A model generated the notes under the pieces. The model was given only the letters and a program-made list of their open reading frames with translations, was not told the origin of the DNA and did not search any database. The position numbers and the translations under genes were made by a program. From contig OZ021723.1 in assembly GCA_963978545.1 (NCBI GenBank), positions 6,020,273-6,084,272 on the forward strand: a DNA stretch of 64,000 nucleotides, written 5' to 3'. Position 1 is the stretch's first letter. Every line of letters starts with the position of its first letter. Shown here piece by piece: positions 27,792-59,098 of the stretch. Source of the DNA: Linyphia triangularis (taxonomy: Eukaryota; Arthropoda; Arachnida; Araneae; Linyphiidae).

Positions 27792-28012
27792 GTTAGTATC
27801 GAATCCATTCAATACAATTGTCGAATGCATTCATTTAATTGAATTACTCGATGATAAACTAGTTTGAAATTTTAAATGATAATAATTCAAACTCGATGAA
27901 TCTTTAGTACTCGATAACGAGCCACTTGATGATAAACTCAACTGAAATTTCATTTCATAATTGTTTAACTTTAATGAAAATTATAAATTTATTTAACTGA
28001 AAACTTACTTGA
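27792..28012. other. start of the groucho intron, nothing recognised
   Basis: AT-rich intron sequence up to the SINE target duplication. Confidence 0.6.
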
Positions 28013-28192: not shown

Positions 28193-28201
28193 CTTACTTG
28201 A

Positions 28202-28730: not shown

Positions 28731-28734
28731 TTAA

Positions 28735-29451: not shown

Positions 29452-29579
29452 TTAACCGTTAAAAGTGTATAGGATTGCGATTTGTAAAAAGAAGGTGAAT
29501 TAAAAAAGTTTTATGTGTCAGTAGGTTATGTGTAACTATAATTCTGTAATTTAATATCTTATTTACATCTCAATAACAT

Positions 29580-30115: not shown

Positions 30116-31245
30116 AAGTTCAGTATCCTCTTCTTGCAGACGATTTGAAGATCATAATATCTTTGCGGAAGAATCGTGTACTGTATGCGAGATAATATAA
30201 ACTTTTGATAACTGATTTGGATATTAAAACGATGTACTTCTTCTAATATTGACAGGTGTTAGCTCAAACGGAAATATTAACGTGGATTTTGGAATCTAAA
30301 TATTAGTACTTTAGAGAAGGGTATTTGTAATTTGATGCAAAATTTTAAGCATATATATTCAGCCAGATATTTATTCAATTAAGGTTTGAAATGTATTGTT
30401 GGGGATAAGGCGATAGATTTTAAAGCTAAAGTTGTATAGATGCGGGTATTTAAAAATTAAGAAATACTACTAATGGGATTATCTTGCATATTGTAAATTT
30501 CATGGGGTAAATAAGGAAAACAAATATAGTATGGGGTAAATAACATGGGGTAAATAAGGAAGTAACATACAAAAAGATTTTATTCACAAACATTTAAACG
30601 CCATTTGTTGATGTTTTCGTGTTGAATATGATAGTATCCGGGGTAGTATATCCATGAAATAAATATATAATAAGTAACCATTAATAATTTTAACTTGCAT
30701 TTTAATAAATTGCAAAAAAAAACCCAATAAAAATCGATATAAAGTATAAATAATTACTTCTGTTAACTATTTTTTGTTATTGTTTACATAGTTGGCATAT
30801 TCGATCGCTTCAATACCAACACACCCCACCTGCGAACAACATGTTTTATCACAAATATATAAACATAGCATGCAATACAATGACAGATAACAGTACATAA
30901 AAAAACTTTTATATACCAATGAAATGCTTTTAAGTGAATACAACAATTTTTTTTCATGGACAACTTTGGTAAGAAAATCTGCAATCACGTATTCAGTCTG
31001 TATATAATTCAGTGTAATTACATTATCCTATCATAAATCCGTGACAAAATGAAAACGCAAATTCAAATGCCTCGACATATTTGAAGATTTTGCAGACTTA
31101 ACATATTGAATAAGTATCAAGTTTGGGAAACAGTTGACATACCTAAAGATGAAACAAATTTAATAAAAAGCAAGTGGATTTATGTATCGTCTGTCTTTTT
31201 CATGTCCGTCCTGTTTTCAACCAGAAAACCATGGACTCCTTAATA
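30116..31245. other. intronic AT-rich sequence with a short ATGGGGTAAATAAGGA repeat
   Basis: Near 30500-30560 the motif ATGGGGTAAATAAGGA occurs three times. Overlapping small minus-strand frames at 30767-30988 show no domain. Confidence 0.5.
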
Positions 31246-31903
31246 GTCCGAGATGCGACTGCAATTTTTGGACCTCATCAAACATCATTCTGAATTTTTT
31301 ATAGAGATTGGAGAAAAGTGAGTAGATTAGGAATCCACTGGTCTGCCGTGGCAAAAATGGCCGAAACTGATCAAAAACTGACTTGAAATGAGTTGAACTA
31401 AAATCCGATTGCCAAATATGTCATAACTTGCCAAAAAGAGAACAAACTTTTTCTTTTGGCAACCCTGCATTTTGATTTTCAATGAGAAAAAGCGCAAACG
31501 ATTTTTGATCTCTGGCTTGGAAAATGTGTATCTTTTAAAAGTAAGCCAAATTGGCAACATCAGTTACGTCATCATTGAAGTAATGTTTATTGCCAACTTG
31601 GCTCCCTTTTAATAGATGCAAGTAGACCGTCGCCAGATATCTGAATCGCCTGCAACCTTCTTAACTGATAATTAAAGAGTGAGGGTTACCAAATTAAAAA
31701 AAAAATGCTCTTTATTTGGCAAATTATGGCTCATTTGGCAATTGGATGTAGTTCAACCTAATAAAAGTCGATTTTTGATCAGTTTTGGCCATTTTTGCCA
31801 CGGCAGACCAGTGGATTCGTAATCTACTCACTTTTCTCTAATTTCTATAAAAAAATCAGAATGATGTTCGATGGGGTCCAAAAATTGCAGTCGCCTCTCA
31901 GTC
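31246..31903 (+). mobile_element. MITE family A, full copy 3
   Basis: 658 bp between TA at 31244-31245 and 31904-31905. Left end GTCCGAGATGCGACTGCAAT, right end GCCTCTCAGTC. The centre keeps TTACGTCATCA but the second half-site is mutated to TTGAAGTAA. Confidence 0.9.
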
Positions 31904-31905
31904 TA

Positions 31906-32459
31906 TAATGAAAAGAACAACTCGCATATGTGAATGCACTTCTTTTTAAATGTTATCTAATGAAAAGAGCTCTATAAAGCAACTTGATCTATATTTAGGA
32001 TTATAAAGTGTTGGCTAGTTAGATTATTGGCTTAAGGATTGTAAAGAATTGTTGGACAGGACTTACCTAGAAGAACTCGTATTTGGTCCATCTTTTTTAA
32101 TAAGTAGGCGCCTGTGTAATATATTTTGAATTTAATTATAATCCTTTTTTATTTTTAGCACTGCAATTTACATTAATGCAGGGGTCGCATTCGCCCTTAA
32201 TTTCCTAATATTCCTTAAATTTTTGTTCCTCTCTAAAATTCCATAATTTTATGAAATTTTTCGATAATTCCTTAAAAAAAAATTAAAAACCCGAAATTTC
32301 CTCTATTTTCCTCCAAAATCCTCGGAAAAAACTCAGATAATCCTCCAGAGGAGATAATCCTTTTTTAAGATTTTAATTATTAATTATTTAATTTTTTTTT
32401 GAAAATGGGCAGTTTTCTGCCGGTATTGAAATATGTTTTGAAAAGAATGTCTATTTTAG
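31906..32459. other. intronic sequence with decayed repeat text
   Basis: From about 32178 the sequence GGGGTCGCATTCGCCC starts a stretch of CCT/AAATTT-rich low complexity that leads into the minisatellite. Its boundaries are not clear. Confidence 0.4.
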
Positions 32460-32815
32460 GAGTCTCTATCAACTTCAAAAGAAATACCCCTAAATTTTTT
32501 TTTAAATTATCCCTAAAATTTTTGAAATTACCCCTAAAATTTTAAGAAATTATCCCTAAAGTTTTTGAAATTACCCCTAAAATTTTAAGAAATTATCCCT
32601 AAATTTTTTTGGAATTGCCCCTAAAATTTTAAGAAATTATCCCTACATTTTTTGGAATGACCCCTAAAATTTAAAGAAATTATCCCTAAAATTTTTGGAA
32701 TTACCCCTTAAATTTTAATAAATTATCCCTAAAATTTTTGGAATTACCCCTAAAATTTTAATAAATTATCCCTAAATTTTTTGGAATTACCCCTAAAATT
32801 CCTACCTAATTTTTT
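32460..32815 (+). repeat. about 42-bp minisatellite
   Basis: Alternating AAATTATCCCTAAAATTTTT and GGAATTACCCCTAAAATTTT blocks make about eight composite units. Confidence 0.9.
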
Positions 32816-35642
32816 TTAGAAAACTCACTGCGTCACCTGTTAATGTTTAATGTTCATTTGTGAATATTCTTTACAAGAAGTAGACAAAAACTTGTATTTT
32901 GCTCAAATTCATTTAGAATTAATAACTTAAAATTTAATGATTTTTTTACAAATACTTTAAAAGGGATGATACATTTAACAATGCTTTTTGGATTTATGAT
33001 TTTCCGAAGTTGTTTGTTAGATGCTTCAAAAAGATCTTTTCATTACTAGAGCAAGATTTTTTTTTTTTTTGTTTAAAAGAAAGTTTAATCAATTGGGGAA
33101 AAAGTTGTACTTAAAGAAAGTGTTTTTTTTTTTACAAATTTTAATTTTACGAGCAATAAAAACAAATTATATTCCATAATAAATACATCTAAACCACACA
33201 TAGTCTACATATTAGTATTTAAAAATCATAATTCCTACTATAGACAAAATAAATCATTCCGTTTAAACTCTTTTTTTTTTTTTTAAATGTCTAGCAAAAA
33301 CCAGGTTTTTAATTTTAGAATAAAGCGCTTTAAAACCAACTTTCATACCATGTTTTAATACAGCATAAGAATTCCATCATATTTACGAAACGAAACTCAA
33401 ACCTCCGAAACCTAGAACTTGTTTTTAAAATTTCGAGAAAGAAATACTTCTCTCTCAGATACTAAGAATCAGACTGTTTATTACAGATGAAAACGACAAA
33501 CAATAATACTTCACCTCTTTTGTGTTTTTTTTTTAATTTTTTTTTATTTTATAACAATCGTTTACCTTAAATTGTTGAGATTAAATCCTTGCCTTATTTT
33601 TCAAAAAAAAACGAGTTTGCTTTTAAAAACCACTCGTTCACCCCGGCTATTGTGATGTTCACATGCGCCATTTATTTTTGTATTTCTATCCAATGGCATA
33701 TTAAACGAGGGAAAATAAAAATAAAAAAATTAATTTCATAACGTGCGTGAAGCCAGTTATTTCCAGCCCCCCCCCTTTTTTTTTTAAAGCTCCCGAACTG
33801 TGCGAAATTGTTTTCGGGATTATTGTTATTATTTATATTCATTAAACTACCTTTGTCTGTGGCCACGAAATTCCAGACTTGGAGTCGAAAACGCTTCAAC
33901 AATTCCTTATTTTTGTGCTCTTTCTCACTTATTGTCGTGGGCTATAATAATAATCCGCATTTTCTGCACATAAATTACGGTTAAGGCTCATAGGCGTATC
34001 ACGACAAACATGTTTTGGAATCGCCGAGAACATCTGGAAACGGTGGAACAAGAGAAAGCCTCTAATAATCGTTTGGGATAGCAACCTGTGATTTTCGAGG
34101 TCCTAAGGCCTCGTATAGGTTGCTGGACGTAACCCCCCTCCTCTCCTTCCCCCCTTTTTCTTGTTGAGAGATAAACTAGTATTCTCTAAAATGGAACGTT
34201 TACGTTCACGCTACGAAAAACTTTAAATGGCGCGTTTTCGTTTCGAATTTCAGCTGCAATTGAAGAAAAAAAAGTGTTATTCTTCTGCTCTGATAGAAGT
34301 GCTTACTTTCTTCTCCAAAGGCGGGGTTTTATATCTTTTGACTACGATCGCTGTTATTGTTGAAAGCGTTTTTTCCCTTAACCACATTGAAGTTGGATAA
34401 TTGCTTTTAACTTGATCGTGGCGTGTCCAGGAGTAAGTCTGTTTATTTCCAAGAATGCCATTTCTTTTAAAAGAAGATGAGAATGTGCAATGAATATGAC
34501 TATGAATGTTGAAATTATGTGTTTTCTAGATAATGCATTCCCATTTATTCCCAAAGGAATTATAATAACTACTAAAATACTGATGGCCAGGTAAAAATGT
34601 AAATATTTGTTTTTAAGGGAAATTGCTATGGCTAAGATTACTTACATCATCCAGTTATAGTTCATGCTTAAATTCTTTCAAGTGTATTATTGACTCGTAA
34701 TGAAAGTCCCAAATTCTGTTTAGCATCAGAGTACATTTTTTAATTTCTTTCATAATAGATGAATATAGACTTTATTTAGAGCCTTTATAAGAATGGAAAG
34801 TCGCAATTGCAGTAAATTCTGTGCACTTAATGCCAAACACGTAAAATAGGATACTTAATTAAAATTTAATAAATCATTCCATTCGAATTGGTATTGACTG
34901 GGACTAGCTTTCAAAACGACAATATATAGATACATATAAACCAATAAATATATTGCAAAAGAATTTAAATATTTAGAAACAATGTAGCTTTCATTAATTT
35001 TACAGTTTATTTCTATGAATGTTATATCTATCCATTTTTTTTTTGTTAAGCTATTTCTATGGAAATACTAAAAGTTCTTATTATAATTAAGGGGCTGCCA
35101 ATGAGAAGTTAGAGAACACATTAAGTAGATAAATGTTCAAGAATTATATGTTATTTGCATAAGTAAATAAGGTTATCGATAATAAAAAACATTGCATAAC
35201 AAATGAAAATGAATCAACAATGGGAACTAAAGTCAACGTCTGTTAATAATATATAGTATAATTATAATACCAATATTTCTATAGTATTTCAATGAAAGTT
35301 ATTCAAATTCAAGAGTAAATTATGTTCTTTGTTATACATATGACAAAGGCATTTCATGTGTATTCATATATGGACTATTAGATTTACAATTGCTACAAAT
35401 TGATAATTTCGTTCAATGCATTGTTGCGAATAAAATAAGAGAAAAAAAAAGGTAGTGTTACAAATCAAAGGATGAAGATTATACATTACTTTAATTTTAA
35501 TATATCTAATGTTTCAATTAATGCATCCCTCATACTGAATCCAAACTTTTATTTCCGGACCATTTAAAGATTATCAAAAACGAGACGACAAACAAAGCAC
35601 TTTTCGTGTAACGAGACAAAACATTCATTATGAAAAGTTAGT
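32816..35642. other. long unique intronic stretch
   Basis: Not obviously repetitive. It has T-runs at 33057-33070, 33123-33132 and 33270-33284 and a less AT-rich, CpG-containing patch at 33640-34460 with CCCCCCCCC at 33767-33775 and pyrimidine runs near 34130-34160. No exon with family similarity was found. A regulatory role for the patch is possible but not shown. Confidence 0.4.
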
Positions 35643-36245
35643 ATGAATTGTGCAAAACACCGACAGATCCAGTATTCTATTGTGCTTAACAGCCATGTTT
35701 GTTGTATTAACCTTTTGATTCATTCAAAGCCAATTTTCGATATTTTCCAGATCTTCCTCTTTTTTTTTCCATGCAGTCTTCAGTATACATATGCAGCAAG
35801 CAAGATTGAGAACAAAGCCTGCTCATGGCTTGTTTGCGCTCGACGAATTTTTAATCCTATCCCCAGTCTATTCAAAAGTACAATAAGACTCGAAACGCAC
35901 CCAGGTCTTGTCGTTTATTTGATAAAGAAACTATGTTTATTTAAATTGCTTGCTTTGTATAACATTCCGATGGAATATGCCATTGTTTCCCATTTGATAT
36001 TCTGTCAATCCTATCAGTCCGACTTCTTGTTTGTTCTGGGCAGAGTGATGGAATATCCCAACGAAATGGCAATTTTCAAACAAACAGTGGCGACCGCATT
36101 CAACTTGAGCCCCCCCCCCCCCCCATACCGATATCAAATTCAGGATGATTTGTTTGAAAATGGAAACTCTCGGGACAAGGAGAGAAGGAAGAAAATGTCA
36201 AGAAAGAAGTTCTTTTTTATTATTCTGATGTTTTCTCTAGAATGA
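35643..36245 (+). CDS. longest non-repeat open frame, 200 codons, unassigned
   Basis: An ATG-to-stop frame of 200 codons lies inside the large groucho intron. The text is rich in F, L, I and S, has a C-run-encoded PPPPP stretch (around codon 157) and a basic tail (ERRKKMSRKK, then hydrophobic FFFIILMF). No known domain, conserved motif or clear signal peptide is recognised. Upstream there is no evident promoter, and several alternative frames overlap on the minus strand. In AT-rich DNA a frame of this length is uncommon but not decisive, and a chance frame is more likely than a gene. Confidence 0.15.
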   Translation: MNCAKHRQIQYSIVLNSHVCCINLLIHSKPIFDIFQIFLFFFPCSLQYTYAASKIENKACSWLVCARRIFNPIPSLFKSTIRLETHPGLVVYLIKKLCLFKLLALYNIPMEYAIVSHLIFCQSYQSDFLFVLGRVMEYPNEMAIFKQTVATAFNLSPPPPPYRYQIQDDLFENGNSRDKERRKKMSRKKFFFIILMFSLE

Positions 36246-36439
36246 TAACGTTTTTTTTTTTGGTCCGAACTGTAAAATTCCCGACATTGCCGAGCGAGGT
36301 GGATGATATTTCCCCCCCACATGCAAATAGACATATAGAATATACCACTCGATACTTTGTTATTACTATAGGCGCCAACTATACGGTAGCAAAGGGGGCG
36401 GTTGCCCCCGTGCTCCACCAACAGTGAGGGGGGGGGGGG

Positions 36440-37747
36440 TGAAATGTCATCTGTAAAAATATGTTTTTCCAAAATTAAATTTTGAGTAAAAGGACATTTT
36501 GTAAGAAAAAACGTCCTAAAGAAAAAAAAAATCTAATTAAACTAAAAAGTTAACACAATATTTGTAAGCACACTGACGTTATCCACCCAAATGAGAATCA
36601 TATAACAGGGTTTCCACGGTCATTGAAAGTCATTAAAAGTGCTTAATATTTTTGAATAGTTTTTCCAAAATTAAATTTTGAGTAAAAGGACATTTTGTAA
36701 GAAAAAAACGTCCTACAGAAAAAAAAATCTAATTAAACTAAAAAGTTAACACAATATTTGTAAGCACACTGACGTATCCACCCAAATGGGAATCATAAAA
36801 CAGGGTTCCCACGGTCATTGAAAGTCATTAAAAGTGCTTAATATTTTTGAACTGGTTTTCAAGGCCTTGAAAGTGCTTGAAAATGGTTTGAGGTGAAATG
36901 TCATCTGTAAAAATGTGTTTTTCCAAAATTAAATTTTGAGTAAAAGGACATTTTGTAAGAAAAAACGTCCTAAAGAAAAAAAATCTCATTAAACTAAAAA
37001 GTTAACACAATATTTGTAAGCACACTGACGTTATCCACCCAAATGAGAATCATATAACAGTGTTCCCACGGTCATTGAAAGTCATTAAAAGTGCTTAATA
37101 TTTTTGAACTGGTTTTCAAGGCCTTGAAAGTGCTTGAAAATGCTTAGAGGTGAAATGTCATCTGTAAAAATGTGTTTTTCCAAAATTAAATTTTGAGTAA
37201 AAGGACATTTTGTAAGAAAAAAACGTCCTAAAGAAAAAAAAATCTAATTAAACTAAAAAGTTAACACAATATTTGTAAGCACACTGACGTTATCCACCCA
37301 AATGAGAATCATATAACAGTGTTCCCACGGTCATTGAAAGTCATTAAAAGTGCTTAATATTTTTGAAGGCCTGGTTTTCAAGGCCTTGAAAGTGCTTGAA
37401 AATGCTTTGAGGTGCTTAAAAGTCCTTGAAAATACTTATAGGTCCTTAAAAGTCCTTAATTTTTGCAGATGTTATGTGGCTAACTGCAAAATTTATAAAC
37501 ATACAACTCGGACTTGCTATCCCCGCGTGACCTCCACGTATTTGCACCGTATCAAAATTTTCCGACATATTTGTATTACGTATCCACCAATTTGTAACTT
37601 TTTTGGCAAAATATACTTTATTAAAAATTTATTTATTAATATGATGCCTGAAAACAATTTTCAAAGGTCCTTGAAAACATTGATTAGGTCCTTAAAAGTC
37701 ATTGAAAAGTCATTGATTTTCATTCTGTGATTTGAGTGGGAACCCTG
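36440..37747 (+). repeat. about 257-bp tandem repeat with hAT-like ends
   Basis: Four units (starts of GTTTTTCCAAAATTAAATTT at about 36463, 36659, 36917 and 37174) carry AAAAGGACATTTTGTAAG, AAGTTAACACAATATTTGTA and CAGGGTTCCCACGGTCATTG. The last is a hAT-type terminus. The right side ends GAGTGGGAACCCTG at about 37747, its inverse partner. The left terminus plus outside flank has therefore been tandemly multiplied. The 126-codon frame at 37350-37730 is repeat text. Confidence 0.8.
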
Positions 37748-40039
<2,292 letters not shown>

Positions 40040-40430
40040 ATTAAAGCATTGTTACGGGAATTTCGGAGGTGGGGATGTTTAGAACACCTTAAGAGGCATT
40101 AGCACAGAGATTTTTATCAAAATCGTTAGAGCCGTTTTTTAGTAATCATTGAAAAACATGATTTTTTCAATGGCAGCTACCTTATGCGCATGCGCGATTT
40201 TGACGAAAACCTTAATGGTGGATCCCATGGCCGCCACTAACCCTCATGCCAAATTTGAACATTGTAGGTCAATTTGTTCGGGAGTTATGCTGACCACAGA
40301 AACACACACACACACAACACTTTTTTGAAATCAGGATGTTCCAAAACGTGGAAAATTGCAAAGAAAATCGATTTTTTTTAATGAATGCCATACTTTTTTT
40401 ACCTTGTGTATATATACTTATGGGTGATTG
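40040..40430 (+). repeat. dispersed repeat family C
   Basis: Includes GGGAGTTATGCTGACCACAG, an (AC)n run, GATGTTCCAAAACGTGG and ATCGATTTTTTTTAATG. It matches, in inverse, the region around 4500-4640. Style and the inverse relation suggest a retroelement tail. Confidence 0.5.
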
Positions 40431-41370
40431 AAAGTAAAAATATGTCATTATTTATGTTACTATGTTTTATTATTATAAGTATCAAGAGTTTTAAAATTAG
40501 CTTTTAAATTATTTTGCATTGTCGACTTTCATATCTTTTCTACTCATTATCATATATATTACTTTCTATTAAACCACTAAATGAAACATCAAACATTATT
40601 CCAATGCTATTTCTCATAACAGTTACAGGAGAAATAATTGACTTTCAGCGGTTTCGTGAGTGATAATGTTTCGTATGAATTTAAAAAAAAAAAAAATGCT
40701 TTTTAGTGTAGGTGGAAATATACGAGAACAAACGAATCTACATATGTTTCAGAAGAAAATAGGTTATTCTAAATTAGTTGTTGTTGGTGAATCCACTAAA
40801 TGTTTTCGAAGACAATAGGCCATTCCTAGTTAATTGTTATTGAATCCACTAAACGTAGCAAATATAATTGGGTATTAAAAAAATGGCGATATCCTATTAT
40901 TAGTACAATTTGAATTAAAAAAGATATAAAATAAACAAGTAAAATTAGCCATAAGATTAGCTAAATGTGTAAATCATACATAATTTACAACTGGTACATG
41001 TGGACTAGTGGCTAGTTATTTAAGAAGTGCCAGTGAGCATTTTTTTGTGGAAAAATTAATCATCATATAAAAAAAACGTTCAAAAATAATATGTAAGGGT
41101 TATACTTTTCTCACCATAAATTAAAGTTATTCTCGATAAATTCTTTTTAACGATACACTTGATAAAATGAAGGTATCTCAATTCATATTGCTCATTAACT
41201 TTTTAAAAATGGATAATTCCGTTTTAAGCCTATCATCATATAGTGTTGCATAATTCTAGAAACAACACATAATACATATTTTCTAGCAATCATAACTTGA
41301 AAATCGAAGAAAAAAATGGATACGATGTCATTTAGCTTAGAGATGCCGACATCTCAAAACACTAAATTAA
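40431..41370. other. AT-rich intronic sequence
   Basis: No feature beyond partial ancestors of the tandem repeat that follows: TTTTAAGCCTATCATCATAT occurs once near 41223. Confidence 0.5.
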
Positions 41371-42447
41371 ATGAAAAAATCTGTGCTTCAATCAATAGTT
41401 ATAGTTAACTTGTTAAAAATGGATACTTCCATTTTAAGCCTATCATCATATAGAAGCATCAAGTCTCAAAACACCAAATTAAACATCTGTACTTCAATCC
41501 CGCATCCAGAACGATATAAAATTTCTCAACATTTAAACGATTCTGTGTTATGTTAAAAATCTGTACTTCAATCAATAGTTATAGTTAACTTGTTAAAAAT
41601 GGATACTTCCATTTTAAGCCTATCATCATATAGAAGCATCAAGTCTCAAAACACCAAATTAAACATCTGTACTTCAATCCCGCATCCAGAACGATATAAA
41701 ATTTCTCAACATTTAAACGAATCTGTGTTTTGTTAAAAATCTGTACTTCAATCAATAGTTATAGTTAACTTGTATAAAAATGGATACTTCCATTTTAAGC
41801 CTATCATCATATAGAAGCATCAAGTCTCAAAACACCAAATTAAACATCTGTACTTCAATCCCGCATCCAGAACGATATAAAATTTCTCAACATTTAAACG
41901 ATTCTGTGTTTTGTTAAAAATCTGTACTTCAATCAATAGTTATAGTTAACTTGTATAAAAATGGATACTTCCATTTTAAGCCTATCATCATATAGAAGCA
42001 TCAAGTCTCAAAACACCAAATTAAACATCTGTACTTCAATCCCGCATCCAGAACGGTATAAAATTTCTCCACATTTAAACGATTCTGTGTTATGTTAAAA
42101 ATCTGTAATTCAATCAATACTTATAGTTAACTTGTTAAAAATGGATACTTCCATTTTAAGCCTATCATCATATAGAAGCATCAAGTCTCAAAACACCAAA
42201 TTAAACATCTGTACTTCAATCCCGCATCCAGAACGATATAAAATGTCTCAACATTTAAACGATTCTGTGTTATGTTAAAAATCTGTACTTCAATCAATAG
42301 TTATAGTTAACTTGTTAAAAATGGATACTTCCATTTTAAGCCTATCATCATATAGAAGCATCAAGTCTCAAAACACCAAATTAAACATCTGTACTTCAAT
42401 TCCGCATCCAGAACGATATAAAATTTCTCAACATTTAAACGATTCCG
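41371..42447 (+). repeat. 180-bp tandem repeat, six units
   Basis: Units start at about 41371, 41551, 41731, 41911, 42092 and 42272 with AAAATCTGTACTTCAATCAA and contain ATGGATACTTCCATTTTAAG and CCGCATCCAGAACGATATAA. They are nearly identical. The palindromic ATGGATACTTCCAT core stands out. Confidence 0.97.
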
Positions 42448-43258
42448 TAAAGTAAAGGGAATCTCGATGATCCCGTCAATCGATTCTACGCCAAAACCGT
42501 TTTAAAACGCTTCCTTTTTTAAAAAAGCGCCATTTTCTTTTCTTCTTCGCAGTCAATACGCTCATTGTTGTCGAAGAGCTAATTATATTTCGCTAACGTC
42601 GCACCCCCGGCGGTCTCTAAAGGGGGGGGGGGGCTGCCCCCCCTCCCTGCATTTTTCTCACTCCCCCTACGCTTAATTAACGCGATCCTGCATGTTATCG
42701 GATTGGAAAGAGGAGATGGGGGGGGGGAGGGTTAAAAAAGCCATGTTTGTCCTTTTCCGCCGGATCGGCTTCCAATTGCGGAAAAGAATTGAAAAGTCGC
42801 GTTTTCCGACTCCGCGGTTCGCAAACATTTGTCGGGGGGGGGGGGGGGGGGCAGAAAAAGGGTCGAAATGGCACGCGCGTTTTTGGGTCGAAATGGTTGC
42901 ATGTTTGATAGTGCGTGTTTTTTTTTTTTTTTATTGTTTTTTTATTAATATTATTATTTTATTGTACTCTGTATTGTTTGACCTTCAATGAATATGCAGT
43001 TGTATGGTAGTTGAAATGGTTTTTATGGATCTTGCATGGTGTTTTGTTCGTTCTGGTAGTTTTCTTTGGTTGAAAATTTCCTGGTGCAAGAGCTACACGG
43101 AGTCCATGACATTTAAGAAGGTTTCAGTTACTTGCTTGTTGTATGGAAAAAAAAAAAAGATAAATAGATAAAAGAAAATCTTTAAAAGCACTTTTAACAA
43201 ATATAAGTACACTTAATTGTGTTTTTAATTTAAGTTTATTTAATACTGTTTCTTGTTG
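42448..43258. other. CpG- and G-run-rich intronic island, then AT-rich spacer
   Basis: A sharp rise in GC between about 42450 and 42930. G runs of 12 (42622-42633) and 18 (42834-42851) bases and one near 42719-42728. CpG-rich words such as CCGCCGGATCGG and CGACTCCGCGGTTCGC. No splice-bounded exon is recognised. The 99-codon frame across it lacks a domain. Confidence 0.5.
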
Positions 43259-43272
43259 CATGCTATCGTGTC

Positions 43273-43454
43273 GCCGACCAAACGGTATAGTGGTTAGCGT
43301 GCTAGCTTCTAGACCGCGAGGTTGCAGGTTCGAGTCCCGTGTTAGGCATGGGTGTTTGTAAATGTATGTTGGCTTGTCTAATGACGAAAGTTTCGGCGGA
43401 TTATAGCCCTCGTGTTGCTGATGGCGCCAGATAATCTGAAAACAACCAACCAAC
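43273..43454 (+). mobile_element. tRNA-derived SINE, copy 4
   Basis: A perfect 14-bp target duplication CATGCTATCGTGTC lies at 43259-43272 and 43455-43468. It starts GCCGACCAAACGGTATAGTG. The A box and the B box GGTTCGAGTCC are intact and it ends in AACAACCAACCAAC. This is the best preserved copy. Confidence 0.93.
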
Positions 43455-43468
43455 CATGCTATCGTGTC

Positions 43469-43971
43469 TAAAATCCGAGATGCAAGAATGCAAAACTTTG
43501 TGAAGATTTCTTAAGAGCAATCGACATTAAAACGTTTAATTTTTTTTTATAATGTAAACAAACAAGAAATCAGTAGAAAAAAATTCTTGCTAACGTATGA
43601 AAGTATGGAACTTTGCCTATTAATGCGGCAAACTTTACAGGCTGGACTTTATAGAGATAGTTACGAATCAATGGCTCTGATTATTTTGAAATAGTAATTA
43701 AGAGAAAAGATACACAGTAAAACTCCAATCGCCTTATTTTCTTTCTCAAACATAATATGCACAGTACCTTTTTATGCAATATCCTTCTAAGATTTTCCCC
43801 ACTAAAATGCAGAATTTTTTTTAGAATAGTTTAATTTGATGTTTAGTAAATAGTACATGATATGTGATGTGTATTTTAATGTTGTGTTGTTTTAATTGTC
43901 ATTCTAATCCTTAATGTGTGTTTTCTTTTCTTCTCTTTTATAACCTGTCTGTTCCGTTCACTGGTTTCCAG
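43469..43971. other. intron leading into the microexon
   Basis: AT-rich. It ends in a strong pyrimidine stretch at about 43921-43971 (TTTTCTTTTCTTCTCTTTTA, then CTGTCTGTTCC and TTTCCAG). Confidence 0.6.
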
Positions 43972-43983
43972 GGATACAGTCAG
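43972..43983 (+). CDS. gro: candidate 12-nt microexon of groucho (GGATACAGTCAG)
   Basis: The acceptor is CACTGGTTTCCAG preceded by about 40 nt of dense pyrimidines. The donor is CAG|GTGAGTGA, close to the ideal consensus. The 12 nt lie between the groucho exons at 27691 and 54316. Inserted at their phase-2 junction they keep the frame and add four residues: ...QYH-RDTV-SLKL... instead of ...QYH-SLKL.... The site would extend the linker at the start of the Q-domain helix. Microexons with strong flanking signals are a known class. Inclusion in real transcripts is inferred, not shown. Confidence 0.6.
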
Positions 43984-44580
43984 GTGAGTGATCATGATTT
44001 TCTTTTATTATTTCCTTAATGAGGAACTTGCACAAGTCAGGAAAATGAATATTTTTTGTATTTTCTAGTGTTATCCAACGAATATATTTGAGCAGTGCAA
44101 TTATTTTTTTATCTTTATGCTTTCAATTAATCAAAAATCGAGTTTGAAATCAGCCGAAATCAAAGCAAAAGTCACGTGACCAAAAACGCATAAAAAAAAC
44201 GTGACGTGTTTACGCAGAGAAAAAGTCACAAAACGAAGGAAATATCTATCTCGTTCCTTCTTAAAACAGGTTTTAGACTGGTTCATTATCTGCGCGTTGA
44301 CGTTCCACGTAAAAGTGGCTTTTTCCCGACAAATCGCTAAGTGAAAAACTAAATATTTTTTTTAACTATCTATTCGAGCTCAAATTTTTGAAAGAATGGT
44401 ATTGTTTTTCGTGATTTTTTCTCTACTTTTATTTAAAAATAAAACCAAAAAACGTGAAAGTTCCTCATTGTGATTTATTCGGTTTTATTATGCGTTAATT
44501 CCCCCCACTAGCTAAACGAAATAATTTCAAAATGAATTAATCAAAACAGAACACGATGATTTCCGACAAAGTTTCATCGG
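43984..44580. other. intronic AT-rich sequence
   Basis: No feature is recognised. Confidence 0.5.
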
Positions 44581-44582
44581 TA

Positions 44583-44814
44583 GTTACATATTATCCCGTC
44601 GACTTATGGCGAACTTTTTGTTGGTACCAAAAAGTTTTAACCATATAGCCTCCTTGGAGGTCCGGTTCGTCTCGGACCAGTGTCAGAGCGTGAAATGCTT
44701 CACCTGCGAGGTGGGTGGATCGAGCATTCGTCATGACCGACCATTTTGACGGACTAAGGAAATCCTTTTGACAAACTTTTTATCATGCCAACAGTCGACA
44801 GGATAATATGTAAG
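44583..44814. mobile_element. 232-bp TA-flanked MITE with a tRNA-like core
   Basis: Flanked by TA (44581-44582, 44815-44816). The arms GTTACATATTATCCCGTCGA and, inverted from the right, CTTACATATTATCCTGTCGA form the inverted repeat. The GC-rich interior contains AGTGTCAGAGCGTG and GGTGGGTGGATCGAGCATTC, which recall a Pol III A box and B box. No frame. Confidence 0.7.
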
Positions 44815-44830
44815 TACCGCTTTATCTTCT

Positions 44831-45944
44831 CGACACACAAACACTGCGTCTACACGATTGCAAATAGCTATAGGTCGATAATCACAGGGAAATAATCACC
44901 GACACAGTCTTATTCCCACGATGGTCAGTGTTACTTAATGTTCAGCGCAATCTCTCCAGAATTTAAAGAAAATATGCCTTTTATGTGATCTTTTAACTCG
45001 TGAATTACGCAAATCTCAAGGATGAATATTTACGTAACTATAGTAAAAAGTGTCCGAATCAAATGTACCTAACTTGGAGAGCGCTCTACACTTACAGGAC
45101 GCTCTACACTTAACGACACACAAACACTGCTTCTACACGATTGCAAATAGCTATAGGTCGATAATCACAGGGAAATAATCACCGACACAGTCTTATTCCC
45201 ACGATGGTCAGTGTTACTTAATGTTCAGTGCAATCTCTCCAGAATTTAAAGAAAATATGCCTTTTATGTGATCTTTTAACTCGTGAATTACGCAAATCTC
45301 AAGGATGAATATTTACGTAACTATAGTAAAAAGTGTCCGAATCAAATGTACCTAACTTGGAGAGCGCTCTACACTTACAGGACGCTCTACACTTAACGAC
45401 ACACAAACACTGCTTCTACACGATTGCAAATAGCTATAGGTCGATAATCACAGGGAAATAATCACCGACACAGTCTTATTCCCACGATGGTCAGTGTTAC
45501 TTAAGGTTCAGTGCAATCTCTCCAGAATTTAAAGAAAATATGCCTTTTATGTGATCTTTTAACTCGTGAATTACGCAAATCTCAAGGATGAATATTTACG
45601 TAACTATAGTAAAAAGTGTCCGAATCAAATGTACCTAACTTGGAGAGCGCTCTACACTTACAGGACGCTCTACACTTAACGACACACAAACACTGCTTCT
45701 ACACGATTGCAAATAGCTATAGGTCGATAATCACAGGGAAATAATCACCGACACAGTCTTATTCCCACGATGGTCAGTGTTACTTAATGTTCAGTGCAAT
45801 CTCTCCAGAATTTAAAGAAAATATGCCTTTTATGTGATCTTTTAACTCGTGAATTACGCAAATCTCAAGGATGAATATTTACGTAACTATAGTAAAAAGT
45901 GTCCGAATCAAATGTACCTAACTTGGAGAGCGCTCTACACTTAA
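44831..45944 (+). repeat. 283-bp tandem repeat, four units
   Basis: Units start CGACACACAAACACTGC at 44831, 45114, 45397 and 45680 and are almost identical. Internal words include ATAGGTCGATAATCACAGGG and CACGATGGTCAGTGTTAC. Each unit ends ACGCTCTACACTTAACGAC, except the last, which stops at CTACACTTAA where the next element begins. Confidence 0.97.
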
Positions 45945-46711
45945 GGGGAGTTTAAACCTTTTGACGCCAACAAAATCAGCTTTTTTTGCGTAATGTTCAA
46001 TATACTTTCAAATAAAATATACTTTATATTTTTAATTGTAATTTTTTATACAATACAATGCTTATTTTCTTCTTAAAAAAAATAACTATTTTAGACATAA
46101 ATATATTTTTTAAAAAGTTATCAAGTGAAATGTAACGATTAAAAATATAGAAAAAAAAATTTTGAACATAAATTACCCACAAGATATTTTATTACGTTTC
46201 TGGAATAAACTCAATATTAATATTGGAAATGAAAGCTAATTTATGGGTTTATTATCTAAAGCAGAATTATTCTTTTATACAATATAAAAATATTTTTATG
46301 TAAAAAATAACTTGACAATTTTAATTTTAATTTTTTTTTCTAACTATAAAGGACGTTTTATAAAAAATTTGTCATCTATATTCTTATTTCCTGCTTCAGA
46401 GAATGTAAAACTATCAAGTGCATATCCATAAATTTTTTTTAAAGGGATAGAACAATAACTTTTTTTTAATATTGTGGGAAACTTATACTCATAATTTTTT
46501 TTCTCTAAATTTTACATCATTACGTTTCACTTGATAACTTTTTAAAAAACATACTTATGCTTAAAATAATTCATGTTTTTCAAGAAGGAAATAAACATTA
46601 TGCTGCATAAAAAATATCAATTAAAAATACCGAATACTTTTTATTTTAAAGCATATCGAAAATTACGTAAGAAAAGCTATTTTTGCTGTCGTCAAAAGGT
46701 TTAAACTCCCC
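45945..46711. mobile_element. TTAA-flanked MITE, singleton family (P5)
   Basis: TTAA at 45941-45944 and 46712-46715. Ends GGGGAGTTTAAACCTTTTGA and TCAAAAGGTTTAAACTCCCC are perfect 20-bp inverted repeats. The inverted similarity continues inward loosely (AGCTTTTTTTGCGTAAT against ATTACGTAAGAAAAGCT). 767 bp with no frame. It sits at the end of the 283-bp array. Confidence 0.92.
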
Positions 46712-46715
46712 TTAA

Positions 46716-47007
46716 CAGAATGTTGAAAAGCATACGAGAAATGTAAAATTCGATAACAAGACTCACAAAGTTTTTAGGAAAAAACAAAAACAAAAAAAAA
46801 TATCAGTGCACTTCCATGTGGGCTTCTTGTATTCTCATATCCAGCCGATAGTCCAGTTCCAAACATCGCTGTATACTGTTAAAAATGTTGTTCCATCTTA
46901 CACCAAAAATTGTGTCCCTTTTAGCTACAATAAACATATGGTGCTTAGTGTTACACGATTTAAGGAAAGTTGGTACCCTCTATGCAGGTAATGTTAATTT
47001 GGCATAT
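46716..47007. other. unassigned spacer
   Basis: A 61-codon frame (46806-46991) is present, without recognisable features. Confidence 0.45.
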
Positions 47008-47322
47008 TTCATGTACCCTTTTCTCAAAAAGTAATTGACATAGAAGCCTAATATTTTTTACTGTGAATTTAGCAGACACTTGCTTATCTACTGAAGTTAG
47101 CTTTTGATTGTAATTTATTTACTTTTTTTTTCTAAATACATTTTTGTGAAAGTCACTCAAATTTGTTAAAAATCACAATTTTTTTTTTTCCCGATATAAG
47201 CCAAAACAAAAAATATTTTTAAAATAACAACAAAATATCACTTCATTATATACAGATACATAAAAGGAATATCAAAAATTTAGGAAGCTAGTTTGTGCAG
47301 TTTCTGAAAAAGGGTACATGAA
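47008..47322. mobile_element. foldback element with TTCATGTACCCTTTT ends
   Basis: The left TTTCATGTACCCTTTTCTCA and the right end GAAAAAGGGTACATGAA are inverted repeats of about 20 bp. The interior is AT-rich. The target duplication is not resolved. Confidence 0.6.
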
Positions 47323-49608
47323 TAATGAAAAATTTAATTTAAAAAAAAAAAAAAAAAAAAATGCATTTCAAAGAAAACTTTACTTATACAAATAGTTACC
47401 AATTTTGTCTTTAAAAATTATTATAAATATTTTTAGTTCAGGTATTATTACAAATAAGGTATCCTTTTAAAGGGAGGAATTTAAATTTTGATAAAAATTA
47501 ATAAACACAAAATCGATTATTTATAAATTTTAGATTACCAACTACTCTTAATTGTGCTTACGGTCCGAGGTAGCACTCTTAAATCGTAAAACTAAGCATC
47601 CAATGTTGGTTGCAGTTTAGGAGCCAATTTTTGGTGGACGGCGGAACAAAATTCTTTACAGTGTAGCATATCCGCAATGACAGTAGCAATAGCAGTTATT
47701 ATTGAGGCACAAAGGTCTTCTACATCACTGATGTTCCTTGAGTAGAGTAGAATTTGCCTATGACTTAGCGTAGCCCCCCCCCCCCCAAAAAAAAAATGCG
47801 TCTAGCTATTGAATCTCCGTGTTCTATCCATCTGTCAGTGAAAGTTGCATCCAAAAATGCATTAAGTGTAAATAGTGCATTGAATATTTTTGGTAAATTT
47901 ATAATTCCGTCTTCCGATTTAGAAGATGACAAATTTGTATTTGTCGCTTGTGGGGTTATGAAGCAAATAAAGTCAACTCCCTAAACCCGATACCAACCTA
48001 TTCATTTAACCAAAATATGTTTAATTTTTTCTGGGTGGAAAGAGAGGAAGGAGAGGGGGGGGGGGGAGGGAGTGGCCTATGTGTGTACATATGTACACGG
48101 TTTGAAGCCGTCAATTACTCACTGTTAACGAAAAACCGATAAAGCGAATGGCCCACTTAAAAAGCATTTCTAAAAGAGGAGTCTGCATTCCGAATGGGCG
48201 GGGAATGAAACAGCATCGAATTAAAAGTGGGCAGGGGCATTTTTTTACCCCTGTCCACCAGTACCCTCCCCAACCACTCACTCTGAGCAAAAAAAAAATA
48301 AAGGGTAAATTAAAAAAAAAAAAAAAAATACAAAATCTTTCTCTCTGCGTCGGGGAGGGGGTGTCTTTTAATAAGAGTCGTGTGCTGGTTCTTAGGGAGA
48401 GGGGGAAAAGGGGGGGGGGGATATTGCAAGTTGCACAAACACGTGTCGTGAACGCATTGGAGTACATGAGTTCTTGCGCTAGGGGAGAGAGGGGGGGGGG
48501 GTAGGCGTGTTTCGTCCTTTCGTTAATGAGTTTTTCTAATCGAAATGCATTTGCATCTCTTAACAAGTTTTCTCTTTTTTTTTTTTTTTTTTTGTTGTTT
48601 CTTCTGCTGCCGCTTCCTCAGACCGTAACGACTTTCTTCTCCATTAAGTATTTTGCTTCTCATAAAAACCTCCCATTCGCTTCTTTTTTAACGAATGTTC
48701 TTATTAAAAACGATGTAAGGGCGCAGCCCCAGCGAGGTTTTTTTTTCGTCCCCCCCCCCCCCTTCTCTCTGTGTATTTTTTTTTTTTATCTTCGTTCTTT
48801 AGCAGCCCTCGTCGTCATTTAGAGTATTTTTTTTTTCTGCCCCGGCTGTTTTTCATTATGGCTCGTGTCTGCGTCTTCATTTCGCGCTCCCTCCCCCCCC
48901 CCCTTCTACCGCCCTTGCCCAGAGGATTTTTTTTCCCTCTTCTTCCTCCTCTTTATAATTTTTTTTGTCTCTCCTTTCATTTAGAGACGGATATAAAAAA
49001 AAAAACGCCAGTGAAAAAAAAAAAAGAGCTTAGTCATTAATGGTTTTTAAAATACAAACATGGTTTTTTAAGATTTTAAGAGCGCAAAAAAACAAGGGTC
49101 CGCTTCGCTCCTTGCATTAAAAAAGAGGGAGGGGTAAAAAAAAAAATATGCAGTGGCAGTTTTTTTTTTCTCTCTTCCCTTCAGTTCTCCGGATCTTCTC
49201 GTGTCCTGGGGCAGTTTTTTTTTTCTGCTCAGAGGGGGGCAAGGAAGCGGGAATCCAGGGGGGAAGAAACTTTTTTTTTAAGCTCGCGGGTACGGTTTGG
49301 CAATATATTTTAATGAACCTTCTAACCGGTGGATATTAGAAAGCGCTTGATGAGAATATTTGAAGCTCGCATTTTTAAGAGGGTATAAAAAACTGAGTAA
49401 AAAAAAAAAAAACGTAAAAATAAAAGGCTTTTAACTACGCTCTTTATTTACTTATTCGGGCGGGTATCGCCAAATTCATCGGCTCCCTTCTATTATTTAT
49501 GACTAAGGTCCCTGACAATATCGATTTCCTAAAGGTGCACCTTGTCTAATGGCGCGAAATTTACTGGAAACAATTTTACAAACGCGTAATTTACTTTTTC
49601 AGTTAATT
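47323..49608. other. intronic region with many G/C homopolymers and pyrimidine runs
   Basis: C or G runs of 11-13 occur at 47774-47786, 48055-48066, 48410-48420, 48750-48762 and 48893-48903, with long A and T runs between. The frames here (up to 151 codons, in opposed pairs) are low-complexity text and not called as genes. A shift from pure AT-rich to mixed composition is clear from about 47750. Confidence 0.5.
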
Positions 49609-49615
49609 GTATATC

Positions 49616-50120
49616 CGGTAAAATCTTAGATGGGCCCACCTCTTGGCGACTTATTTCAAATCTCGCCAAGTTGACTACTAATTGAATATTTGTTATTATT
49701 ATTTTTCAATTAAAAAACGATACTTAAAGGCCAGAAATAATAATATTTTATAAAAAAAAATAATTAAGACTTACTATAAATGTGTTTGAATCCTTTGACG
49801 GCGGAGGGTACGTGTAATGATTAGCCGAATACTTGTAAAATCATAAAAACCTTCTCCCAAGAGACCAGATGCATAAATGACGGGAAAAAAATGAATACAT
49901 ATTAATCAACCAATTAGGTTTCAGAATTTCGTTGCGCATTTCGAATAGTTTTGGTTCCGAAACGCCGTTGTGATCGGACGCTCAAACAGGGCGCTCCGTA
50001 AGATTCTAGACTGTTCTCCTCCATAATCCGTCTATGGTTGCCACATTGGCGACGTTATCGCCACTCGTTTGGCGAGAATTCCAAAAGATGCCAAGAGGTG
50101 GGCTATTCTAAGATCCACCC
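49616..50120. mobile_element. foldback element with CCCACCTCTTGGC ends
   Basis: GTATATC at 49609-49615 and 50121-50127 is a 7-bp target duplication (perhaps 8 with one change). The left end CTTAGATGGGCCCACCTCTT and the inverse right end CTTAGAATAGCCCACCTCTT match well. 505 bp. The duplication length would suit a hAT- or Merlin-type mobiliser. The interior contains several TTGGCGA motifs. Confidence 0.75.
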
Positions 50121-50127
50121 GTATATC

Positions 50128-51182
50128 TTTATTAAGTATGGAAATGACCCGCACGGCATTCACTGCATATATTCTCCAGCTACAATTTAATTTCTCTGTT
50201 GTATTCAATTTGTTGGTACTCTTCCATCGCCAAATTACAGCGATACCTTATTGATACCAATAACCTCAAATCCTTTATAATTCTATAAAAAAAAACATTA
50301 TAGGGTTGTTTTAGCAATCTTACTAGCCTTGGCGCCAACTGGTACCCTTCTAACCGAAGAGTACTAATTTTTCCTTTCCCATGTAAAAATCTTTTATAAA
50401 TAGAATCGTATCTCCTCAAAAACAAATAGTCATTGTAAAAGAAAAAAAAAACCTCGCTAGGTAAAATGGTCAACCAGAAAAAGTTATGAAATTTAATATT
50501 TGCCGCTAAGCGGCCGCGTTTAATTCTTTTGAGGTGCTTGTACAGTATGTTTTATATGTTATATGTGTTTTATATGTTATATATGTTTTATATGTTATAT
50601 ATGTTTTGTATAAAGGGAGAAAAAGACATCGCTACAAAAAAAGATCGTTCAAAGATCAGTGCTAGAAGTGTGGGTCGACGCGGGATGATGCGTCCCCCAA
50701 CTTTTCAAGAAAATACCCATGCGTCCCTTTACTTCTAAAACCCCTGAAATCCCCCCCCCCCCACACTTTTAAAAACAATCATTCTACCTAAAAACTGCAA
50801 AAGAAAATTAAAATTACCTTTTCTGGCACAAGATTTTTTTTTTACTTTCAGTTTTTGAATACAATATACAATACTTGTATAAATAATAAATGACAAAATT
50901 GTGGAAAAAAATCATCCTATCACTGTCTTCCGAGTCATGCACTACGTATATAATCCAAAATTGTATAACTTTTTTTTTTTAATTTCCTACTATTTTTTCA
51001 GCTTTTATCACTCAATTTTCTTTTTTAATTTCTTGAAGTATTAAACAATTCGGACCATGGAATATTAGATAGTAGTAAAATTAGATAAACGTAGATTTTT
51101 CTTCTTAAAAAAAAATTTATCAAGCATGTAGGAAAAAGCAAAATGTAGTGACACTGACAAAAAGTGATTTATAGTTTTCAAA

Positions 51183-51215
<33 letters not shown>

Positions 51216-52290
51216 AAAAATTACGGCATATGTATATCATACTGTTAAAAAAATTTAACAAATACAGGGGGTGGGGTGCACTTGCTACCAACTTTTGGGC
51301 ATCCCCCCCACTTTTTATCTTCCACTTCTACCACTGTATAAGATACTAATTGAATAAACTTCTATAGAAATTCATATGTGGGACAACCAAAAGTTTTAAT
51401 ATTCGTAACAAATAACATTATTTTATAGAACTAGCTTTCCCAACTCTAAATTACCACCCTAACTTTTTTAAACATAATTGTCTGATATATTAAAATATAA
51501 ATTAAAATTTAATAACTTTTCATGTAATAGCTTATAAGAATTTAAGAAAGCGAATATTGAAAAGAAATTCCACTTTCTATGGAATGCTCCATTATGTAGT
51601 TTGATTTGGAAATTTTCATGCAGATTTAATGTATTTTATATCTTGCTAGGGAGTATTTTTAGGAACAGGTAAATAGTGTTTTATTAGCTGCATTACCCTT
51701 CTTTCTTTAGCAAGACCAGCTGTTCAAATAGTTCGCCAACACCATAAAGTATTATTTGTCACAGTATATTAGCATGGCTCACGTTTTCTTGAATAGTCAA
51801 CTACAATCTGCTGCCTGTAATAGTCAGCATAAAACTTTCTACGGTGAATCGATTTAATTTAATCTTCAGTGATTTATACATGTTTTAAACAATGAGTCCG
51901 TGAAGTTTTATGAAAGTTAATAGTATTAATTTTAATTTAAGTATTTTCATGATTAACTTTAAATCGTAAGTTTATCATGTAAGTTTATGATGAGTTTATT
52001 TAATGTTTTTTATTTTTGACTCTTGGAGAATAACGTTTTCGAGAGCAGTCTTCATTACATTTTTTCCATCAATTCAATGAATGTAACATTGAAGTTATAA
52101 CAATCCCTTATCTTTAATTTTCTGCTGTAATTTTAAATATTTTAAATTTAATTTAATTATCTCGTAATTTAAACGCGCACATATTTTAATGGTAGTGTGA
52201 TACGGAACATTTTCATAAATGTGTCATTTAGAATAAATTATCTGCAGGAAAATTTTTAATATTCTTGTTAAGTACTAGTTCATCGTACAG
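50128..52290. other. intronic AT-rich sequence with short repeats
   Basis: A short TATGTTATATATGTTTTA repeat lies near 50545-50610, a 12-C run at 50751-50762 and an A run near 51186-51213. The stretches at 50690-50780 and 51265-51320 resemble decayed dispersed repeats. No coding feature. Confidence 0.5.
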
Positions 52291-52293
52291 TAC

Positions 52294-52295
52294 AC

Positions 52296-52329
<34 letters not shown>

Positions 52330-53090
52330 GATTATTCCTTTAAAGGGTGAAATTTGAAGTTTTACTTTACAGAGTCAGTGAGTGAGTGAGCGTGTCAGTG
52401 AAGAGCGTAACTCTTATAGTAATATTCTCTTAAAATAACTCTTATTTATCTTATAATAACTCGTATAATAGTCTTATAATAACTCTTATAGTAATATTCT
52501 CTTATAATAACTTTTTTTTATTTTATAACAACTTCTTATAACAACTCTTATAATAACTCTTACAGTAATATTCTCTTATAATAGCCCTTATAATAACTCT
52601 TATAGTAATATTCTCTTATAATAACTCTTATAGTAATATTCTCTTATAATAACTCTTATAGTAATATTCTCTTATAATAAATCTTATAGTAATATTCTCT
52701 TATAATAACTCTTATAGTAATATTTTCTTATAATAACTCTTATAGTAATATTCTCTTATAATAACTCTTATGTAATATTCTCTTATAATAACTCTTATTT
52801 ATTTTATAATAACTTCTTATAATAACTCTTATTTATTTTATAATAACTTCTTATAATAACTCTTATTTATTTTATAATAACTTCTTATAATAACTCTTAT
52901 TTATTTTATAATAACTTCTTATAATAACTCTTATTTAGTTTATAATAACTTCTTATAATAACTCTTATTTATTTTATAATAACTTCTTATAATAACTTCT
53001 TATAATAAATCTTATAATAACTTCTTATAATAACCCTTACAATAACTCTTATAGTAATATAGTGTAGTAATAATAAGTATATAGTAATAT
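52294..53090 (+). repeat. (ATA)n tract and TAATAACTCTTATAG minisatellite
   Basis: A (TAA)n run near 52296-52326, then from about 52410 many units of TAATAACTCTTATAGTAATA plus TTCTCTTA, changing from about 52780 to TAATAACTTCTTATAATAAC types. Confidence 0.93.
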
Positions 53091-53344
53091 ATAAAAATTT
53101 ATATTCTTGTTAAGTACTAGTTCATCGTACATTACACATAATAATAAAAAAAAGATTATTCTCTTTAAAGAGTGAAATTTGAAGTTTTAATTTAAGTCAG
53201 TAAGTGATCGTGTCAGTGATGGGCATAACTCTTATAGTAATATTCACAATTCCCAAAAATTGAAAAAAATTTTACTAAAATTTTAAAAACATTAAATTTA
53301 TGACACCTGATTACTTTCCACTTTTATTTGTGAATCTTGTGTTT
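53091..53344. other. partial repeat of the 52260-52400 flank
   Basis: TGTTAAGTACTAGTTCATCG and GAGTGAAATTTGAAGTTTTA recur here after 52265-52375, so the flank of the minisatellite is itself duplicated. Confidence 0.6.
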
Positions 53345-54315
53345 AGAATCAATTTGAAAAAAAGTGTTTATGTTCTCCCTTTGAAAAACAAGTAATTATG
53401 TTCACCAGCAAAATACCTTCAATAGCTGTTTATCAATGCATTTACTGAATTCAATTTCTTTCCAGCCTGAAACTGGAATGCGAGAATCAATTTGAAAAAG
53501 TGTTTATTTTCTCCCTTTGAAAAACAAGTGCTAAATTATGTTCACCAGCAAAATACCTTCCAATAGCTGTTTATCAGTGCATTTTATTGAATTCAATTTC
53601 TTTCCAGCCTGAAACTGGAATGCGAGAATCAATTTGAAAAAGTGTTTATTTTCTCCCTTTGAAAAACAAGTGCTAAATTATATTCACCAGCAAAATACCT
53701 TCCAATAGCTGTTTATCAATGCATTTTACTGAATTCAATTTCTTTCCAGCCTGAAACTGGAATGCGAGAATCAATTGGAAAAAGTGTTTATTTTCTCCCT
53801 TTGAAAAACAAGTGCTAAATTTCGTTCACCAGCAAAACACCTTCCTAAGCTGTTTATCAATGCATTTTACTGAAATCAATTTCTTTCCAGCCTGAAACTG
53901 GAATGCGAGAATCAATTGGAAAAAGTGTTTATTTTCTCCCTTTGAAAAACAAGTGCTAAATTATGTTCACCAGCAAAACACCTTCCAATAGCTGTTTATC
54001 AATGCATTTTACTGAATTCAATTTCTTTCCAGCCTGAAACTGGACTGCGAGAATCAATTGGAAAAAGTGTTTATTTTCTCCCTTTGAAAACAAGTGCTAA
54101 ATTATGTTCACCAGCAAAACACCTTCCAATAGCTGTTTATTAATGCATTTTACTGAATTCAATTTCTTCCCAGCCTGAAACTGGAATGCGAGAATCAATT
54201 TGAAAAAGTGTTTATTTTCTCCCTTTGAAAAACAAGTGCTAAATTATGTTCACCAGCAAAATACCTTCCAGTAGCTGTTTATCAATGCATTTTACTGAAT
54301 TCAATTTCTTTCCAG
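53345..54315 (+). repeat. 142-bp tandem array that multiplies the splice acceptor of the next groucho exon
   Basis: Each unit holds about 120 bp of intron (ATCAATTTGAAAAAGTG, TTTTCTCCCTTTGAAAAA, GTTCACCAGCAAAATACC, AATTCAATTTCTTTCCAG) followed by the first 21 bases of the real exon (CCTGAAACTGG...GCGAGAA). Decoy exon starts lie at 53466, 53608, 53750, 53891, 54033 and 54174, spaced 141-142 bp. The seventh, at 54316, continues as true exon. At each decoy the text diverges after GAGAA into TCAATT. A shared AGAA at 53345-53348 and 54333-54336 suggests microhomology at the origin. Using any decoy gives the start of the exon and then an in-frame TGA after about 18 codons. Confidence 0.97.
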
Positions 54316-54379
54316 CCTGAAACTGGAATGCGAGAAGCTGGCCAGTGAGAAGACCGAGATGCAAAGGCACTACGTCATG
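54316..54379 (+). CDS. gro: Groucho/TLE corepressor, Q-domain exon (LKLECEKL...QRHYVM)
   Basis: This 64-nt exon completes the split serine from the exon at 27691 and encodes [15 protein letters not shown], then QRHYVM. The run is practically invariant among Groucho/TLE proteins and forms the continuing amphipathic helix of the tetramerisation domain. The acceptor is AATTTCTTTCCAG and the donor is GTCATG|GTAATA. It ends in phase 0 and joins the exon at 59054. The same acceptor and the first 21 bases are present six more times just upstream, so this is the only copy that carries the full exon and a donor. Confidence 0.97.
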
Positions 54380-59053: not shown

Positions 59054-59098
59054 TATTACGAAATGTCGTATGGTTTGAACGTCGAAATGCACAAACAG
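59054..59098 (+). CDS. gro: Groucho/TLE corepressor, Q-domain exon (YYEMSYGLNVEMHKQ)
   Basis: This 45-nt exon encodes the 15 residues YYEMSYGLNVEMHKQ, the near-invariant Groucho/TLE segment after QRHYVM. Drosophila Groucho shares the valine where human TLE has isoleucine. The acceptor is TTTTTTTTCAG and the donor is CAG|GTAAGA, both strong, with phase 0 at each end. The next family segment (normally starting TEIAKRLN) was looked for in all frames to the end of the window and not found, so the following intron exceeds about 4.9 kb. The three exons together give about 70 residues of the Q domain. Confidence 0.97.

Follow-up and report, generated by a model that had tools for sequence, protein, structure and literature searches.

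In the 64,000-nucleotide stretch of Linyphia triangularis DNA that we analysed (hereafter, the window), a tandem array of seven 142-bp units runs across the acceptor of a 64-nt exon of a groucho gene, leaving six further copies of the intron end and of the first 21 exon bases upstream of the true splice site (Table 1). We consider it likely that this structure is a neutral minisatellite expansion, which the gene would tolerate because selection of the acceptor depends chiefly on the short, GC-richer exon and on the donor at its other end.

Table 1. Features of the groucho gene and of its tandem array, in coordinates of the window
Feature	Position	Strand	Remarks
Groucho exon Ea, upstream	27691..27791	+	101 nt; donor GTTAGT
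Intron holding the array	27792..54315	+	26.5 kb; 19.1% in arrays (unit of at least 50 bp, at least 2.5 copies)
Tandem array, 142-bp unit x 7.0	53345..54336	+	TRF, unit boundaries, alignment
Unit starts	53345, 53483, 53625, 53767, 53908, 54050, 54191	+	Unit boundaries
Decoy acceptor 1 and exon-derived bases	53466..53486	+	Stop TGA at 53518
Decoy acceptor 2 and exon-derived bases	53608..53628	+	Stop TGA at 53660
Decoy acceptor 3 and exon-derived bases	53750..53770	+	Stop TGA at 53802
Decoy acceptor 4 and exon-derived bases	53891..53911	+	Stop TGA at 53943
Decoy acceptor 5 and exon-derived bases, one substitution	54033..54053	+	Stop TGA at 54085
Decoy acceptor 6 (TTCCCAG) and exon-derived bases	54174..54194	+	Stop TGA at 54226; exon would be 206 nt
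True groucho exon Eb	54316..54379	+	64 nt; (S) + 21 residues; donor GTAATA
Groucho exon Ec, downstream	59054..59098	+	45 nt; donor GTAAGA

The window contains three groucho/TLE exons on the plus strand, designated Ea, Eb and Ec. Once spliced, their 70 residues match the Pfam profile TLE_N (PF03920; E = 7.4e-38, profile positions 1-61 of 118) as well as the TLE1 structures 4om2 and 4om3, which bears out the gene identity that had been proposed from the bare sequence. Exon Eb is flanked by introns of 26.5 kb, upstream, and 4.7 kb, downstream, and its donor is weak, with a score of 4.18 and rank 304 among the 3363 plus-strand GTs by a crude matrix; all our splice-site scores come from rounded matrices, and not from a trained model. 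The same crude matrix gives 6.59 to a donor-like CCA/GTGAGA at 54345, inside Eb, above the 4.18 of the exon's own donor. Repeats also occur around exon Ea: a 25-bp minisatellite (27319-27593) ends about 100 nt upstream of its acceptor, a 69% self-match reaches to about 10 nt from this acceptor, and the 10-mer TTAGTATCGA occurs both in the donor region (27793-27802) and in the 21-bp unit of an array (29575-30115) located 1.8 kb downstream.

The 142-bp array was retrieved by TRF with a period of 142, 7.0 copies, 95% matches and a score of 1784, far above chance, and its right border lies 21 bases inside exon Eb. Each unit carries TGAATTCAATTTCTTTCCAG followed by CCTGAAACTGGAATGCGAGAA, with a few substitutions; that is, the end of the intron, with its pyrimidine tract and CAG, plus the first 21 bases of the 64-nt exon, into which only the seventh copy continues (54316-54379). 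Exact matches to CAGCCTGAAACTGG place the first exon base of the seven acceptors at the starts of the decoys and of Eb listed in Table 1, precisely where the original prediction had put them, with a spacing of 141-142 nt. The description of the copies that came with it was accurate for the tract, the AG and the single TTCCCAG (copy at 54174), although alignment of the units shows that they are not fully identical: the copy at 53608 has TATTGAA in place of TACTGAA, that at 53891 has GAAATC in place of GAATTC, and that at 54033 has GGACTGCG in place of GGAATGCG. Units 2-7 differ from each other at 2-9 aligned positions, and unit 1 differs from the rest at 12-17, gaps counted; minisatellites commonly have a diverged unit at an edge. 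With at least three units of over 10 bp that extend across the acceptor of Eb, the array corresponds to a minisatellite at an exon-intron boundary, and the conservation of the exon suggests that the splice site crossed in this way is used. Using the whole array stretch as a query against the 1.35-Gb genome, the array itself was the one match, in a search that skips very common words.

Whichever of the six decoys the end of Ea (27791) were spliced to, the reading would be (S)LKLECEN or (S)LKLDCEN and then an in-frame TGA within the same unit, at most 55 nt past the acceptor. The poison reading originally proposed for the decoys therefore holds for all six, each of which would bring the early stop on inclusion typical of a poison exon. 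Extended to the real donor, the decoy exons would measure 914, 772, 630, 489, 347 and 206 nt. By the approximate matrix, GTs that recur across units score no more than 1.57, versus 4.18 for the real donor, and those present in a single unit reach 4.51 (53392, in unit 1, upstream of its acceptor) and 2.20 (54271, in unit 7). We found no recursive (ratchet) site, in which the AG is followed by GT, because all seven acceptors read CAG/CCTGAA; likewise, the spacing of 141-142 nt does not correspond to NAGNAG tandem acceptors, which are 3 nt apart, and the sites (CAG/CCTG) lack the GT of a dual-specific site of the polyubiquitin UBC type. The six acceptors that the spliceosome meets ahead of the true one had been called equivalent, and their strengths are indeed similar, but the decoys are less special than this implies: by the crude score, 59 of the 1196 AGs in the 26.5-kb intron match or beat the true acceptor, five of them being decoys. 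What distinguishes the decoys from other AGs of the intron is that their resemblance to the true site extends over about 120 nt upstream and over the 21 bases with which the exon begins.

A second groucho gene is found about 0.38 Mb away on the opposite strand (G000:C2, about 6.44-6.46 Mb, minus strand; L021, L024 and L025). In this paralog, the corresponding exon also measures 64 nt; a single acceptor precedes it, no array covers it, and upstream a 25-bp minisatellite stops about 60 nt short of it. The deduced products of both exons agree at 21 of 21 residues, yet just 6 of 21 codons are shared, and the GC content is 0.333 in the paralog exon versus 0.524 in Eb. This silent divergence with an unchanged protein suggests that both exons are translated and have been kept for a long time, and hence that the seventh acceptor, at 54316, must work and be used correctly often enough. 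We found no retrocopy that would record the splicing, in that the seven TLE_N matches reported for the genome all fit the two intron-containing groucho genes, to which they were assigned by position, strand and exon ends, a procedure by which weaker copies could be missed.

By the crude matrix, the acceptor score fails to distinguish the seventh acceptor from the decoys; what is exclusive to it is a position 64 nt from the real donor. The sequence that follows differs as well, because bases +22 to +64 of Eb have a GC content of 0.558, versus 0.256-0.302 after the decoys and 0.308 and 0.284 in the flanking introns, and a purine content of 0.63, versus 0.47-0.49 after the decoys. With a 64-nt exon lying between introns of 26.5 and 4.7 kb, these values favour the original proposal, in which the likely discriminator is exon definition or the part of the exon past base 21. 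A role for RNA structure in hiding the decoys was discarded, because the predicted local probability that 12 nt are unpaired was similar throughout, at 0.003-0.026 for the seven acceptors, the true one having 0.011; there were also no inverted repeats of at least 20 bases in 53000-54700. In the human data presented in the available part of PMC9225289, long flanking introns go with a preference for the sites nearest to each other across the exon; where acceptors compete and both introns are long, the preference for the upstream one falls significantly, and that part does not state it to be reversed. As described there, the exon-definition acceptors resemble our array in that several acceptors of similar strength, with long introns, precede one downstream donor, although that comparison involves pairs of sites, whereas the array has six competitors that also share about 120 nt upstream and 21 exon bases with the true one.

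In the scheme that we favour, a minisatellite would have been born inside the long groucho intron and by chance would have taken in the intron end and 21 bases of the next exon. A 142-bp stretch would have been duplicated, perhaps by slippage or end joining where AGAA provided a 4-bp match, and unequal exchange could afterwards have raised the number of units to seven, the last of them still fused to the real exon. The acceptor would be chosen mainly across the exon, where the seventh copy lies 64 nt from the donor and before the GC-richer, purine-rich remainder of the exon, whereas the decoys would require exons of 206-914 nt composed largely of intron-like sequence. Occasional use of a decoy would then give an early-stop message that is expected to be degraded. 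The AGAA present at both borders of the array (left, TTTAGAATC; right, GCGAGAAGC), which had been taken as a sign of an origin by microhomology, is indeed there and is compatible with such an origin, but it is a faint hint of it, because an identical run of at least 4 bases occurs at a random pair of positions 142 bp apart with P = 0.037 (array-poor parts of the window).

In the unit alignment, we see no sign that the acceptor copies are under additional constraint or that they are decaying. The acceptor and exon-derived part accumulated 5 change events in 44 columns, versus 15 in the remaining 100 (Fisher p = 0.79; manual count on the alignment, in which adjacent gap columns were merged), and selection on the decoys was discarded on this lack of a difference in variation with the unit body. 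Likewise, the chance of finding six intact AGs without selection is about 0.66, given the divergence seen.

Tandem arrays are abundant in this region. Counting arrays whose unit has 50 bp or more and that reach 2.5 copies, the window and the 140 kb around it contain 32 arrays, occupying 16.6% of 204 kb, versus a single array (1.9%) in a 40-kb sample from four other places. The three window exons have six splice sites between them, and in such array-rich DNA it is unsurprising that an array covers one. It is not common across the genome, as none of 40 kinase exons sampled elsewhere had a repeat running over the exon, although a sample of 40 leaves room for a few per cent. We picked these manually from 139 kinase matches in order of E-value, considering matches of up to 360 nt with an open frame of less than 150 aa, and skipped five eligible ones within the part of the list covered (C3:98221717, C3:96746912 and three near-twins on C5); the ends of a match only approximate those of the exon, and repeats more than 400 nt away would escape. 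In one of them, L066, an 84-nt self-match touches the matched stretch and ends about 60 nt before the exon. The longest of the many arrays in the window has 44 copies of a 110-bp unit (8597-13456). Additionally, the open frames at 4557-4862 and 43124-43510 (minus strand) share the peptide GC.QIIWR.QQHEGYN...SSLDKPT.IYKHPCLTRDSN.QPRGLEASTLTTIPF, which is probably a dispersed repeat. Scans of the window with Rfam (gathering score) and ARAGORN (tRNAs) yielded no hits.

Neutral expansion with selection of the acceptor across the exon agrees with the non-identity of the seven units, with the array-rich surroundings and with the single acceptor of the paralog exon. Several observations nevertheless go against it: between two long introns, upstream acceptors appear in the available part of PMC9225289 as less preferred, and no more than that; the donor of Eb is weak and has a stronger cryptic donor at 54345 (4.18 and 6.59, crude matrix); the 206-nt exon of decoy 6 would be of ordinary size; and the event is uncommon genome-wide, to judge from 0 of 40 kinase exons and the 1.9% of arrays in the 40-kb sample. 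It is also conceivable, but unlikely, that the array is neutral and that 54316 is chosen by a specific exonic enhancer or a bound protein, and not by its proximity to the donor. Positions +22 to +64 include the purine-rich GAGAAGACCGAGATG, and purine-rich stretches of this motif class are bound by SR proteins; the GC and purine contents of these positions would also fit, and the paralog exon, with its other codons, has a purine-rich stretch there too. However, a fixed protein alone would keep the Eb codons purine-rich, the GC content of the paralog exon is only 0.333 versus 0.524, and an enhancer is inseparable from exon definition in the present data.

The idea that the array tunes the dose of Groucho through poison transcripts, put forward in the original prediction, received no support, because the paralog has no array and the acceptor copies show no sign of extra constraint. 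As a brake, the array would divert a share of transcripts to the decoys, whose early stops would lead to degradation, and the number of units would set the level of Groucho; the tract and AG kept in all six decoys, each leading to a TGA inside its own unit, and the plausible 206-nt exon from decoy 6 speak for it. Besides the absence of excess constraint on the acceptor parts and of the array in the paralogous groucho, the intact AGs are expected from recency alone (P of about 0.66), the array has a single match in the genome, and the unit number is likely unstable, so that we find a dose brake very improbable. We give slightly less credit still to its length-tunable version, in which each extra unit would bring one more poison acceptor, so that the number of units, which unequal exchange can alter quickly, would set how much this groucho produces compared with the array-free paralog. 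That a decoy is the usual acceptor, with the inclusion removed later, or that the array yields an alternative groucho product, would agree with the general preference for upstream acceptors (PMC9225289, available part), but every decoy path meets a TGA, the decoys lack an AG/GT ratchet, the recurring GTs of the units are weak, and the 21 of 21 residues shared with the paralog indicate that Eb is read in frame; we hardly credit it. Equally hard to credit is that the extra units are an assembly artefact, because, even though assemblies often go wrong at tandem arrays, units differ at 2-17 aligned positions and have private variants, the contig spans 111.4 Mb in an assembly of 369 contigs for 1.35 Gb, and a 1-kb array should be short for long reads.

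Our search of titles and abstract openings, which is weak evidence of absence, retrieved nothing on acceptor copies arranged in a row as they are here. The locus shows that an expanding repeat can overrun a splice site in a highly conserved developmental regulator while the exon itself stays intact. It is also a natural near-isogenic test, with seven acceptors of near-identical upstream sequence, tract, AG and 21 exon bases before one donor, of whether the acceptor is chosen by the intron (the first) or by the exon (the last), and of the role of the sequence past base 21. Among known systems, De Grassi and Ciccarelli (2009; PMC2812944, available part) described 27 intron modifications by internal tandem repeats in human segmental duplications, and in those minisatellites, as here, the repeat spans an exon-intron border. 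The units there, 30 bp on average, belong to young paralogs, and their effects on transcripts had RNA support, whereas the unit of the groucho array has 142 bp and bears the acceptor of a conserved exon. The array of the polyubiquitin gene UBC (PMC10809524, available part) likewise contains a splice-site sequence once per tandem unit, although the UBC sites are donor and acceptor in one and delimit coding units, whereas a groucho unit contributes just an acceptor, and what is repeated there consists of intron and 21 exon bases.
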